Source: a virus
Length of the DNA: 34,016 nucleotides
IMG/VR virus record: IMGVR_UViG_3300051212_000027
Location: 1 to 34,016 of that record
Direction: 5' to 3' (one strand)
Shown: positions 7,131-32,184 of the stretch, piece after piece
How positions within the stretch are numbered: position 1 is the stretch's first letter
Layout of the letters: each line of letters begins with the position of its first letter
Made by a program: the position numbers and the translations under genes
Notes under the pieces: generated by a model
What the model was told of the DNA's origin: nothing
What the model saw: only the letters and a program-made list of their open reading frames with translations
The model's database searches: none

Positions 7131-7733
7131 TTACTCCTTCAAATGCAATGCGGTCAGGCTGCTTTCGTCTCCAACGTAGCCAACCGGGAAAGTGTTAAAC
7201 GCAAGGGAAACGCGATCATCGCCCTGCACGGTTTCTACCATGTGCGTCAGGCTTGACGGAAACAGCATCAAATCGCCAGCGCCAACCTCAAACCACCACG
7301 AATCGCTGTTGTAAAGGTTGTAGTTGTCGGTCGGCAGTTTGATCTGCTGATAGCCGTCTTTGTAAAAGTAAATCTTGTCACGCTCACGGGCAGCCTTAAG
7401 GTACAGCACCCCAGACACAAACGAGTTCGGATGCGCGTGTTTGTGATGGTATTGACCGGCTTTGGTGTAGTTCAGCCACGATTGCGTTAGGCGCAGCGTA
7501 ACGTCGTGTTTTGGCGCATAGATAGAGCGCAGATACTCGTTGACGCTGGCCTCGGCAAACGCCTTGAGGCTTGCCATCGTGTCGTGACGCAGCACATAGC
7601 GGTCATCGCTCGTCGTGTTGCCCATGTTGCTATGCGTCGGCTGCTCGTCCACAAACGCCATTTCCTCGGCGGTGTAATCCCGTCCAAGTTCAAACTTGGC
7701 GACAGCCGTAGGAAAGAGGTTGTATGTAATCAC
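7131..7733 (-). CDS. 2OG-Fe(II) oxygenase-like protein
   Basis: 200 aa resembling the TIGR02466/2OG-FeII_Oxy_5 family. Candidate iron ligands are in HHKHAHPNSFVSGVLYL (H99, H101) and H164 (FPSSLTHMVE). R174 in DDRVSLAFNTFP would bind 2-oxoglutarate. The conserved SGVLYL and FPSSLTH blocks fit the double-stranded beta-helix fold. The target is unknown; similar genes occur beside fibre genes in many phages. It overlaps the upstream small gene by four bases. Confidence 0.8.
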   Translation of the reverse strand: MITYNLFPTAVAKFELGRDYTAEEMAFVDEQPTHSNMGNTTSDDRYVLRHDTMASLKAFAEASVNEYLRSIYAPKHDVTLRLTQSWLNYTKAGQYHHKHAHPNSFVSGVLYLKAARERDKIYFYKDGYQQIKLPTDNYNLYNSDSWWFEVGAGDLMLFPSSLTHMVETVQGDDRVSLAFNTFPVGYVGDESSLTALHLKE

Positions 7734-28900: not shown

Positions 28901-29203
28901 TCAGGCCGTGAAGAATCCGACAGCCATAACCGCAAGCCCTGCGCCGGTCGTGATCGCCCACGGGCCGGTAGCCGAGGCGGCGTTGACTTCAATGCTGTAG
29001 ACGCCGACCGGGGTGTTGGCAGCCATCGTCAGGACGGTCGTGCTGCCGTCCAAAACGCTTAACGTGCTGCTGCCGGTCGTCGTGACCGTAACCACGATGC
29101 GATGAAGGTAGTCACCCACGGCACCTGTGCCACCGAGTACCTGTGCGGTCTGCGAGGCGGCTACTGTCTCGTAGGGGTAACGATTCGGGCTGACAATGCT
29201 CAT
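28901..29203 (-). CDS. Small beta-rich virion protein, 100 aa
   Basis: ATG 29203 has an upstream GGAGAGCAAGGA and overlaps the terminase stop by four bases (ATGA). The sequence begins MSIVSPNRYPYETVAASQTAQVLGGTGAVGDYLHRIVVTVTTTGSSTLSVLDGSTTVL. It is Thr/Val/Gly-rich and beta-structured, resembling small virion proteins commonly placed between terminase and portal genes. Its location in the particle is unknown. Confidence 0.65.
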   Translation of the reverse strand: MSIVSPNRYPYETVAASQTAQVLGGTGAVGDYLHRIVVTVTTTGSSTLSVLDGSTTVLTMAANTPVGVYSIEVNAASATGPWAITTGAGLAVMAVGFFTA

Positions 29204-30540
29204 ATCCTTGCTCTCCTTGTCGTCGTGCGGTCGTGAACCGCCCACATATCGTTCAACGTGACTGTGTTCTGCGGCCCCACCATCAGCGGCTTGACCTCTG
29301 GCGCTGGGGGCTTGTCAGCGACTTCACTCCATGATACCGCAACCATTCTAAATGCGTCACTAGGGTGTGATGTCCAATCGTGGCGCGGTGACTGACGATA
29401 GGCTTTCTTGTCCTCGTCGTATTCGCGTTGGTATTGGCGTAACGCCTCAATGCCATCGCTGCACTTGGTCGCATCAAACCACACGCGCGGCAGCATCATG
29501 CGAACCGCTTGGATGCCTGACTGCACACCGATGTCGGGGACAACGGCAAGTTTGGCGATGTCCAGTTGCGCGGCAAGTTGTTCCACGATACTGCGCCCGG
29601 TCTGTAAGCTTTTTGCCCGAGCGTCGTGCGGTAGGTAGTGCTTGGCATAGCGGTACGGCTTGTTGCGTACCACATCAGCAATAGTATGGATGTCCTCGCC
29701 CGAGACGGCGTAAAAGTCTATAACGCGCACCTCACCACGGGCGACCTGATAAAACCAAATGGCCGTGTCGTCGCGGAAACCCAAGTCCCAACCCGTATAC
29801 ACAGGCAGATTTGGGTCGTATGGCACGCTGGTGATGCGGCCCTGATCCTGCGCTTCTCGCATTTCTTTTCCAAAAAAAGCGCCGAGGATTGCCGCTTCAA
29901 ATGAGCATTCGTACTCCTGTAAGTACTGATCCTCGGCCAACTGCGCTTTTGCGGCGGCTAGCTCTGTCGCCGGGAGAAGCCCGCTGGTTGACGCGGGTAA
30001 GCGCAACAGGAACCACTCGCTAGGGAGACGAGTGGCGGTATCGTAAATTTCCCAGAACTGGTTTTTGCCTTTCGGTGTACCGCCAAAAACGCACCAGCCC
30101 TGTTTGTCCGACAAAGACGCTCTCAACACGTTCCCGAATACGCTCGGCTTAAAATCACCGTACTCGTCAAGGTATAGCCCCGAGAATCCAAGACCGCGCA
30201 TAGCGTCGGCATTGTCGGCACCAAACAGGCGTATCTGACTTCCGTTGATGAGCGTAATAGTCAGTTCTTGCTCGTTGATGGACTGCACGATGGGGTGTGC
30301 GCCGTCCTTGAAGTACTGCCATGCCACGGCCTTTGCTTGACTGCGGTAGGGGGCGACGTAGCCGAACAACCCGTAAGGCTGCTGATACATCGCAGCAGCA
30401 CGAATCATGTCGTTGACGGCGGCGACCGTCTTACCTGCGCGGCGGTGTGCGACAAGGCAAGCCCAGCGTTTAGTGCGCTCATGGAACGGCATGAACGCCT
30501 TGCGTGGGCGGTAGGGCAGAATTATTCGGGAGCCATCCAT
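29200..30540 (-). CDS. terL: Terminase large subunit
   Basis: 446-aa packaging motor. Walker A is HRRAGKT at residues 32-38; Walker B is LYLDEYGD with D125 and E126. A coupling motif GGTPKGKNQFWE (about 163-174) follows. The C-terminal RNase H-like nuclease shows YTGWDLGFRDD (about 241-251) and HPSDAFRM near residue 400. These features are diagnostic. Start ATG 30540 overlaps the preceding small gene by 19 bases. It docks on the portal and drives DNA into the head. Confidence 0.95.
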   Translation of the reverse strand: MDGSRIILPYRPRKAFMPFHERTKRWACLVAHRRAGKTVAAVNDMIRAAAMYQQPYGLFGYVAPYRSQAKAVAWQYFKDGAHPIVQSINEQELTITLINGSQIRLFGADNADAMRGLGFSGLYLDEYGDFKPSVFGNVLRASLSDKQGWCVFGGTPKGKNQFWEIYDTATRLPSEWFLLRLPASTSGLLPATELAAAKAQLAEDQYLQEYECSFEAAILGAFFGKEMREAQDQGRITSVPYDPNLPVYTGWDLGFRDDTAIWFYQVARGEVRVIDFYAVSGEDIHTIADVVRNKPYRYAKHYLPHDARAKSLQTGRSIVEQLAAQLDIAKLAVVPDIGVQSGIQAVRMMLPRVWFDATKCSDGIEALRQYQREYDEDKKAYRQSPRHDWTSHPSDAFRMVAVSWSEVADKPPAPEVKPLMVGPQNTVTLNDMWAVHDRTTTRRARI

Positions 30541-30761
30541 CCGATCTGTACCTTGACCGGGCCGTTGTTCTCGCCTGTAACCTCTTGCCGCGCCAAGTCA
30601 GGCGCTACCTTCTTGAGCAGTATTTCGGCTGCCTTGATCTGCGTAGGCGACATTTCGGCCTCGCCCATAGCGTGTTCGTGAAGCCGCGAGACAAGGTGTG
30701 TGGCCTTGATGCGTAACTTCCACTCGTCTCGCAAGGTCGTATGTATTTTCCGTGCTGCCAT
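30522..30761 (-). CDS. Small terminase subunit candidate, 79 aa
   Basis: Short helical protein directly before terL. It contains RLHEHAMGEAEMSPTQIKAAEILLKKVAPDL, a pattern common in small phage proteins described as TerS-like. It is shorter than usual TerS and could be only its DNA-binding part. The start ATG 30761 has no Shine-Dalgarno; a small inverted repeat occupies that place. A late promoter candidate lies upstream (30791-30819). Confidence 0.6.
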   Translation of the reverse strand: MAARKIHTTLRDEWKLRIKATHLVSRLHEHAMGEAEMSPTQIKAAEILLKKVAPDLARQEVTGENNGPVKVQIGWMAPE

Positions 30762-30764
30762 GTC

Positions 30765-30819
30765 GTTGTTTTAACACAACATTTAGAAAGATACTATTTC
30801 CGATTGATTAGCTCATCAA
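30765..30819 (-). promoter_or_regulatory. Candidate late promoter with palindrome before terS
   Basis: Minus-strand TTGATG (30814-30819), 17 bases, TAGTAT (30791-30796). The predicted leader contains the inverted repeat GTTGT-N6-ACAAC (30765-30780) just before the terS candidate ATG. The palindrome has no following T tract, so it is more likely an operator or a translation-blocking hairpin than a terminator. Confidence 0.4.
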
Positions 30820-31897
30820 GCGGCACATCGTATGACTTGAACGGATACGTTTGCCGCCGCTGTTCTTTTGTCATGCCAAGCCGTGACTGAACTGCCCGTG
30901 CTTCTGCTTCCCCTGCAAGGCGTTTGTACTGCTCCCGAGGGTCAGCCATTGTCTCAATGCGCTTCAGTTCATAAATCATGTCGCGGATTTCTGGGTCAGC
31001 GAGCGTTTCCGGCTTTGCCCTTTCAAACCCGCTAATGATGAATTCGCCATCTCGGTGACGATCTGCCGCCATTTGCCCAATTTTGCGGCGCAAACGGTTA
31101 ATTGTTTCTTCCCGCTCACCCGCTGACATGATTTTGAATTGATCTGGGTTGCCGCCTCGGGCAAACCCTTCCTTGGCCTGTACCGCGTGTTGCAGTTCGT
31201 GCGCCAACACCGATTTGATTTCTGGCCGATTGCGCCCCGTCACACCGATTTCTGGGTCAAGCCCAAATGTTTCCCTCGTGGCTGGCACTCGCTCTTGGAA
31301 ATATCCGGTTTCTGGCACATCAGGCTTCACGCGCATGGTGGTTAGCGTTTCTTCCATGATGTCGGGATACGCTGCCCGCATTGACGGATTAAACACCGCT
31401 TCGTTGACGTTGTAAGCGCGTGACCGCCCTCCCGGTAATCCATACCCCGGCTTGAACGCCATTTCGTCAGGTATTTCTTGACGTAATTGGTTATCGGTTC
31501 CGCGATATGTCCCGGTTTCGCGCCAAATAGTTTCTGGGTCTATACCAGACGCTTCCATTTCCTCGGCACGTTTTGCGGCGGCAGCGTCCCATGTCTTTGC
31601 CGATTTACCGATAAAGATTTTCTGCATTGTCGGGTCGTATTGCTTTAACGCCCCTGCAAGTCGCCCAAGTGGCAACGCGGAAGCAGCGGCCATTGCCATG
31701 CCAGCTTCGTCATCGGCTCGGCGGGCGCGCTCAAAGTCACGGGCAGCGAGGGCTTGGCCTACGCCGGGGATAAAACTACCGCCCATCTCTAGCGCCATGT
31801 CCACGGCGTCAGACTCTTTGGGCTGGTCTAGGCTCGTCAGGCGCTTTGCCTTCTCGTCAACGTAGGCGAGTGCAGCGGCAAGGCGTTTGCGGTTCAT
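30794..31897 (-). CDS. Zincin-like metallopeptidase (LPD23-like)
   Basis: 367 aa. Residues 233-237 are HELQH, in the context SVLAHELQHAVQAKEGFARGGNP, a zinc HExxH motif of gluzincin type. The later LAGEAEAR (327-334) offers the third ligand. The surrounding blocks (ETFGLDPEIGV, RLGMTKEQRR) resemble the LPD23 metallopeptidase domain described in large polyvalent proteins. The N-terminal 85 residues are helical and glycine-rich (GGSFIPGVGQALAARDFERARR), suggesting a virion-targeting or membrane-associated arm. It is located just upstream of the terminase genes. Substrate is unknown; it could process capsid or an ejected or host protein. Confidence 0.75.
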   Translation of the reverse strand: MNRKRLAAALAYVDEKAKRLTSLDQPKESDAVDMALEMGGSFIPGVGQALAARDFERARRADDEAGMAMAAASALPLGRLAGALKQYDPTMQKIFIGKSAKTWDAAAAKRAEEMEASGIDPETIWRETGTYRGTDNQLRQEIPDEMAFKPGYGLPGGRSRAYNVNEAVFNPSMRAAYPDIMEETLTTMRVKPDVPETGYFQERVPATRETFGLDPEIGVTGRNRPEIKSVLAHELQHAVQAKEGFARGGNPDQFKIMSAGEREETINRLRRKIGQMAADRHRDGEFIISGFERAKPETLADPEIRDMIYELKRIETMADPREQYKRLAGEAEARAVQSRLGMTKEQRRQTYPFKSYDVPLDELINRK

Positions 31898-32184
31898 GCC
31901 TTGTTCCTGCTGCTGATGGCTTTGGCCTTGGCTCGGGCGTCCTCCTTGCTAGAGGCTCCCCATGCTTTAAGTGCCAGCGCAAGGCGTGTGGGCTTACCGT
32001 CCTTTGCCATCGGCCCCGGCATATTGCCCATCCGTGCGAGGAAAGAGGCTCGGCGTGGATTGTCACCCGATTTGACCGGCGGCTTAAGGGTTCCCCCCGT
32101 CTCACGCTTGTAGCTGGCGCGACCCTTGGCGTTCAGCCCGCCTTTAGGGTTTTTGCCTTCGCTGCGAGTCCACGCGGCGGTCAT
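31894..32184 (-). CDS. DUF6321-like basic protein, 96 aa
   Basis: A basic, Gly/Lys/Ser-rich protein with the conserved motif TRSEGKNPKGGLNAKGRASYKRE, GDNPRRASFLARMGNMPGPM and PTRLALALKAWGASS. It belongs to a small family widespread in phages of aquatic bacteria (DUF6321-like). It is joined by four-base overlaps to neighbours on both sides. Function unknown; a nucleic-acid-binding or virion role is possible from its charge. Confidence 0.75.
   Translation of the reverse strand: MTAAWTRSEGKNPKGGLNAKGRASYKRETGGTLKPPVKSGDNPRRASFLARMGNMPGPMAKDGKPTRLALALKAWGASSKEDARAKAKAISSRNKA

Follow-up and report, generated by a model that had tools for sequence, protein, structure and literature searches.

Why would a phage carry a gene for a putative zinc metallopeptidase immediately before the genes that package its DNA? 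The question arises from IMG/VR virus record IMGVR_UViG_3300051212_000027, whose 34,016 bases we analysed as a whole (the window), and in which a first-pass annotation had drawn attention to a zincin-like protein beside the terminase genes.

The gene and its genomic setting

The gene is a single ORF on the minus strand, a strand that the first-pass annotation had not given, and its start codon (ATG) shares bases with the stop codon (TGA) of the DUF6321 gene before it. The main features of the locus are as follows.

30794..31897, minus strand: putative effector gene (arm, LPD23 and zincin), 367 aa, ATG at 31897
31862..31897, minus strand: N-terminal tag, codons 1-12 (MNRKRLAAALAY), where DNA homology with L010, L198 and L204 stops (31861-31863); tag common to other proteins
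31616..31897, minus strand: conserved N-terminal arm, about residues 1-94 (tag included), from arm comparisons among relatives
31457..31618, minus strand: LPD23 (PF18838) subdomain, residues 94-147, from a Pfam match
31187..31201, minus strand: HELQH, residues 233-237, from sequence, conservation and model
30902..30910, minus strand: E330-A-E332, candidate third zinc ligand in helix 328-338, from alignment and model
30797..31615, minus strand: exchangeable C-terminal cassette (here LPD23 plus zincin, residues 95-367); homology with differently ended relatives stops at 31671 or 31632 and resumes at 30798 or 30593
30522..30761, minus strand: small-terminase-like (TerS-like) ORF, 79 aa, by position; 5' part replaced in many relatives, boundary 30593
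29200..30540, minus strand: large terminase (TerL), from an annotation search
31894..32184, minus strand: DUF6321 protein, ATGA overlap with the putative effector gene

In the direction of transcription the order is DUF5856, DUF6321, the putative effector gene, the 79-aa ORF, TerL, a small ORF, portal, another small ORF, a 360-aa ORF at the usual place of the scaffold and the major head protein. The placement directly before the terminase genes, as originally described, is thus confirmed, with the 79-aa ORF regarded as TerS-like by its position and size; it had no PHROGs match. In a TerL comparison, the closest annotated matches come from Rhodoferax phage P26218 (45% identity) and from Pelagibacter podophages, HTVC010P among them (39%), and the annotation of the six TerL relatives inspected contains no arm-type gene directly upstream of TerS/TerL. 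DUF6321 precedes the putative effector gene in some phages and sits between TerL and portal in others. Elsewhere, the window encodes an ERF-family recombinase (1383-2036) and a 2OG-Fe(II) oxygenase-like protein (7131-7733); a promoter and terminator scan returned fewer sites than shuffled sequences did.

A probable metallopeptidase site under purifying selection

The 367-aa protein consists of a helical arm (about residues 1-93), LPD23 (94-147) and a zincin-like domain. The LPD23 context that had been proposed is well founded (Pfam E 1e-12, 48.1 bits vs a cut-off of 27). So is the proposed active site, HELQH at 233-237 with E330 and E332 (located within ..RLAGEAEARAVQ..): H233, E234, Q236, H237, Y324, G329, E330, E332 and R339 are invariant in a 62-row alignment. 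HE.QH is present in 61/61 and GE.[ED]AR in 58/61 distinct complete stand-alone zincin ORFs (no longer than 600 aa, not truncated by a contig end, at least 200 profile positions), a set found with a profile that contains the motif. The position of E332 is Asp in EBPR podovirus 3, which lies outside the 62 rows, and E330 is therefore the better candidate for the third ligand.

In an AlphaFold2 model built from the 62 rows (mean pLDDT 77), residues from about 92 on mostly exceed 80, and HELQH lies in helix 224-243, E330 and E332 in helix 328-338. The arm scores 36-57 per block of ten; its helices (3-21, 29-37, 47-60 and 64-74) agree at low confidence with the helical N-terminus described from the sequence. 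Foldseek found no PDB match at E <= 0.001, and a PDB sequence search matched the zincin only at E >= 0.37 and the arm not at all. VIA-align gave weak structural rows, all at Z <= 5.6, including 6zxj_H (Z 3.5, 109 residues, rmsd 4.7) and 8s5f_D, an HExxH oxygenase domain (Z 4.1, 122 residues, rmsd 5.0). A search of viral structures returned 16 matches at E <= 0.001, and among the best are several labelled 'large polyvalent protein associated domain'. Profile matches of the zincin to M91 (E 0.017) and XopG/HopH (E 0.029) are below cut-off and not significant. From its sequence and the model, the site is probably of the zincin metallopeptidase type, with zinc binding predicted.

Comparison of the zincin part with four close relatives gave dN/dS values of 0.018 (L001), 0.024 (L002), 0.014 (L003, for which dS is already 1.8) and 0.031 (L010); seven further comparisons were synonymously saturated (dS >2 or inestimable) and not used. 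By these ratios the zincin domain is under strong purifying selection, and together with the motif kept in every ORF of the set they rule out a degraded remnant, one of the two cases that would have undone the original interpretation.

The C-terminal half is exchanged among relatives

Most contigs compared here are fragments of uncultured phages. Searching with the whole protein yielded 48 loci, of which 22 match both halves, 25 match the N-terminal part only and one (L010) matches residues 94-367 only. A scan with the arm gave 102 relatives, of which 80 were kept. In 111 loci there are 112 arm ORFs (duplicate contigs counted); 57 of them are distinct from the arm on, and one of these is truncated by a contig end. 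Single linkage at E 1e-4 sorts the other 56, distinct complete proteins with this arm (arm 1), into eight C-terminal classes with 21 (ART-like), 18 (zincin), 9, 2, 2, 2, 1 and 1 members. We call the largest class ART-like on the strength of Pfam ART-PolyVal and motif likeness: L044 scores above the cut-off (E 4.7e-10), L028 (E 0.013) and L354 (1.7e-4) below it, and a relative in phage phiGT1 just below it (E 1e-6). Representatives scanned from the other classes had no significant Pfam match, and profile comparison of the zincin with the ART, C2 and HDYFGH domains gave E 0.15-0.55. A structure model of the class C2 protein reached a mean pLDDT of only 38.7 and was set aside. The arm itself had no Pfam or PHROG match and none in the phage database at E 10; in genome_contigs its scan matched 228 stretches and 0 relatives. 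Two proteins of the arm-1 type, L434 and L449, have a P-loop motif (GGTGAGKS) behind the arm, in a domain that we take to be reminiscent of zeta-toxin-like kinases.

The locus is constant across these colinear, uncultured phages, with TerL lying 179-1278 nt downstream in 51/57 distinct arm-1 proteins; the remaining six are on three contigs that end within 1 kb and three that have no recognisable TerL. At the DNA level, L029 is 94.0% identical to the window up to 31671 (codon 76) and 95.0% identical from 30593 on, inside TerS, with no alignment between. Homology with L024 breaks at 31632, and that with L025 and L028 resumes at 30798, in the codon that precedes the stop. L025 and L028 have an ART-like C-terminus and yet the same TerS as the window, at 100% and 99% protein identity. 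Exchange is also seen on the other side: in L010, L198 and L204, whose arm is a different one, homology ends at 31861-31863, just past codon 12, and L010 carries a zincin with dN 0.010 to that of the window, joined to an arm unrelated to the window's (dN 0.775). The C-terminal half is thus a cassette swapped for unrelated domains among near-identical phages.

At least two forms of the TerS-like protein exist. They end alike (PKLARQE..TG..GP) but have unrelated N-terminal parts, and in many relatives the 5' part of the gene is swapped together with the putative effector.

Unrelated arms draw on the same pool of domains

Other arms were found with the same C-terminal domains. The following profile-based counts are of distinct proteins of at most 700 aa from all loci collected by then.

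Arm 1: zincin 20, ART 19, ART2 2, ART3 2, C2 9, C3 2, C4 2, C6 1, C7 1, none 1
Arm 2: zincin 7, ART 21, none 1
Arm 3: zincin 4, ART 3
Arm 3b: HDYFGH 12
Arm 4: zincin 20, ART 7, C2 16, HDYFGH 1, L309-type 14, none 8
Arms 5, 6 and 7: zincin 7, 3 and 8 (found through the zincin, hence uninformative on swapping)
No arm recognised: zincin 25, ART 2, HDYFGH 5

Arm 1 has no profile similarity to arms 2, 3 and 4 (E 0.027-0.3). A partial relationship links arms 2 and 3 (E 1.5e-6), and arm 4 comes from another podovirus lineage. Two INPHARED records with arm 4, ctnlZ23 (with a zincin) and ct2t2046 (with another domain), have different C-termini, both before TerS/TerL. Unrelated arms in two podovirus lineages thus draw on one domain pool. 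Assembly chimeras are an unlikely cause of the swaps, as the same junctions recur in contigs from different metagenomes (for example L029/L030, L031/L032/L033, L036/L037 and L041/L042/L043) and the two arm-4 records, described as complete and circular genomes, differ likewise.

Stand-alone LPD23-zincins adjoin TerS/TerL or portal in several lineages; one of them, gp3 of EBPR podovirus 3, lies before TerL and has an N-terminus of its own kind. The view that a zincin upstream of terminase is atypical therefore holds insofar as the protein is unlike an ordinary prohead protease, but not for the placement itself, which recurs.

Two further domains deserve mention. A C-terminal domain of arm-4 proteins, typified by L309:1081-2706, occurs in 14 distinct proteins and has no Pfam match at E 0.1. 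The HDYFGH-motif domain is C-terminal in tagged proteins encoded just before a zincin or ART gene (L140:747-2168 and L229:4782-6245); it has relatives in 200 phage records, mostly of Mycobacterium phages, and Pfam offers no clear name for it.

A short N-terminal peptide common to otherwise unrelated proteins

The first ~12 residues are common to proteins that are otherwise unrelated. The pattern [LIVY]A[AEV][AVS]L.[YW] was derived from these proteins, in which its presence is uninformative. Outside them it is rare: the 10,408 distinct ORFs scanned contain 109 matches, none of them beyond residue 60. Outside the arm-1 and zincin sets there are 38 matches, four on spurious-looking ORFs and the rest in arm-2, arm-3 and arm-3b proteins. 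A score matrix trained on 18 arm-1 tags only and applied to 5,052 other ORFs gave one outlier at 37.0, the next best being 10.7. The outlier is a 142-aa gene (L127:1124-1552) directly upstream of an arm-1 zincin gene. Scores above 10.7 were obtained for 27/28 arm-2, 6/7 arm-3, 5/12 arm-3b and 4/8 arm-7 proteins, and for 0/11, 0/7 and 0/3 proteins with arms 4, 5 and 6. A scan with the 24-residue tag found 66 loci, and among the 22 proteins inspected from it, that of L396 (L396:2501-2908, 136 aa) carries the tag on a third body, before TerS/TerL; the bodies of the L127 and L396 proteins are unrelated to the arm. In L012-L014 and L140 two such genes stand in tandem. Between a tagged gene and TerS, L067 (1161-1790), L110 (1457-2068) and L396 (3032-3703) have a gene that, by its motif, we presume to be GIY-YIG endonuclease-like.

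The conservation of the tag could partly reflect a recombination joint rather than a sorting signal. Arm-7 genes, however, lie directly before portal in L138, L148 and L178, so that hitchhiking on the left flank alone is insufficient to explain their tag. A further reading, which we put forward tentatively and as a single whole that is more doubtful than not, is that the tag (R-x-R-[LIV]-A-A-A-L-x-Y, within the first 10-24 residues) may be a portable capsid-loading signal widespread in uncultured podoviruses; that anything behind it may be packed and injected, with protease, ADP-ribosyltransferase, P-loop kinase-like and unknown enzymes exchanged as cassettes at one locus; and that these apparently virulent phages may thereby have a polymorphic effector system that is carried in the virion and does not depend on MuF. 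In phage T4, a capsid-targeting sequence, a short N-terminal peptide, is common to different internal proteins. Its sequence is not known to be related to that of the tag, for which packaging and cleavage would be predictions.

A putative virion-borne effector and its alternatives

On balance, we consider it probable that the gene is one variant of an exchangeable, injected polymorphic effector, which would most plausibly be virion cargo. A lineage-specific N-terminal tag and helical arm would be kept while the C-terminal enzyme changes. The likeliest mechanism is homologous recombination in the conserved flanks, the arm or tag on the left and the gene end or TerS on the right. The protein would be made late, together with the packaging and head proteins, would be taken up into the procapsid most likely through its N-terminus and would leave the capsid with the DNA. 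In the new host, the zincin variant may cleave a host protein as a zinc metallopeptidase, with H233, H237 and one Glu of 330/332 as predicted ligands and E234 as the predicted base, and sister variants would probably ADP-ribosylate. Domain relatives occur in very large proteins of podophages F116 and AF; in AF the neighbours are annotated as internal virion proteins A and B. An ART relative, phiGT1_5 (QLB38217.1), is encoded between portal and scaffold among the head genes of phiGT1, a lytic phage. With the late-operon position, these relatives fit a role as virion cargo, and packaging has been predicted for such domains in the accessible text of earlier papers (PMC5512222; PMC9503650). Of the roles offered by the first-pass annotation, injection with the DNA or action as an effector is the best, at the strength that we infer here for injection and host targeting. 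Gap ORFs behind the putative effector gene in 10 loci included no consistent candidate for an immunity partner.

The main rival is an effector that stays unpackaged and acts late in the dying cell, in host takeover, lysis timing or the exclusion of other phages. The late-operon position fits this equally, and competing phages could drive the diversity, but the domain relatives sit in very large proteins beside annotated internal virion proteins and a cytosolic protein needs no portable N-terminal tag; we hold it to be unlikely, though a serious contender. The swaps might also be a by-product of diversifying selection on TerS, which has been suggested as such a focus in other phages (at least in the accessible text of PMC10386132), the linked gene being carried along. 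That many swaps take in the 5' part of TerS, with the boundary at 30593, and that TerS has at least two forms would agree with this; L025 and L028, however, combine the window's TerS with an ART-like C-terminus, and linkage leaves unexplained why the same enzyme kinds appear in frame on several arms. We regard this origin as improbable.

The remaining alternatives concern the enzyme itself. A domain with HExxH that is no peptidase, such as a metal-dependent oxygenase, would be in keeping with the row 8s5f_D; the invariant E234 and the Glu in the following helix, however, fit gluzincins, and the profile matches, none significant, are to metallopeptidases, which makes this very improbable. A prohead maturation or processing protease is suggested by the adjoining packaging genes, and processing roles for zincins have been proposed (in the accessible text of PMC5512222). 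The zincin, however, is found in 5/19 long related records and missing from 14/19, including ones of 36,549, 36,514 and 35,909 bases and the 29-kb L029 with nearly the same head genes, the records being possibly incomplete. An essential prohead protease is therefore strongly disfavoured, and we reject it as scarcely credible.

Comparison with known systems

The virion-borne effector that we favour would work like the MuF polymorphic toxins, with a different N-terminal module. MuF toxins are encoded in the packaging module of phages and combine a conserved N-terminal part with a variable C-terminal enzyme, their delivery with the DNA having been proposed; the arm-1 proteins share the location in the packaging module and this architecture, and metallopeptidases and ADP-ribosyltransferases, frequent among MuF toxins, have zincin and ART-like counterparts on arm 1 (accessible text of PMC5576092). 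Two of their defining features, however, fail here. Pfam scans of the 367-aa protein and of ten arm or related proteins found no MuF domain (MuF3 and MuF4 were outside the scan), and the MuF gene lies after portal, whereas the arm-1 gene lies upstream of TerL in 51/57 cases and its relatives before portal. In addition, according to the accessible text of PMC5576092, MuF toxins occur only in temperate phages, whereas these genomes are of podovirus type, with a PF00589 integrase, the one family sought, in 0/17 records that may be fragments (control 14/14). The general layout of polymorphic toxins, a conserved N-terminal module with non-homologous C-terminal domains, is found here too.

Polyvalent proteins contain LPD23, zincin and ART-PolyVal domains, and the accessible text of PMC5512222 predicts packaging and injection for phage members and mentions solo LPDs near structural genes. 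The comparison with them, which the first-pass annotation had proposed, holds for LPD23 and for the HExxH and Glu helices but not for the multi-domain chain: polyvalent proteins have 2-15 domains per chain (PMC5512222), whereas here one enzyme domain in 367 aa is exchanged between phages. ARTs are often near terminase and portal genes and likely packaged, but exchange on a common arm and a common N-terminal tag are not described for them in the accessible text of PMC9503650. Metallopeptidase effectors of the M91 and HopH types match the HExxH region weakly, below curated cut-offs, with no family membership. We found no earlier description of the C-terminal exchange in the open-licence PMC literature.

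These phages, environmental podoviruses with unstudied internal proteins, may thus have a second, MuF-independent route for carrying interchangeable enzymes. Near-identical phages that differ by a swap are natural controls for the effect of each enzyme on the host, and the tag, if functional, would be a small address label for loading proteins into the phage head.
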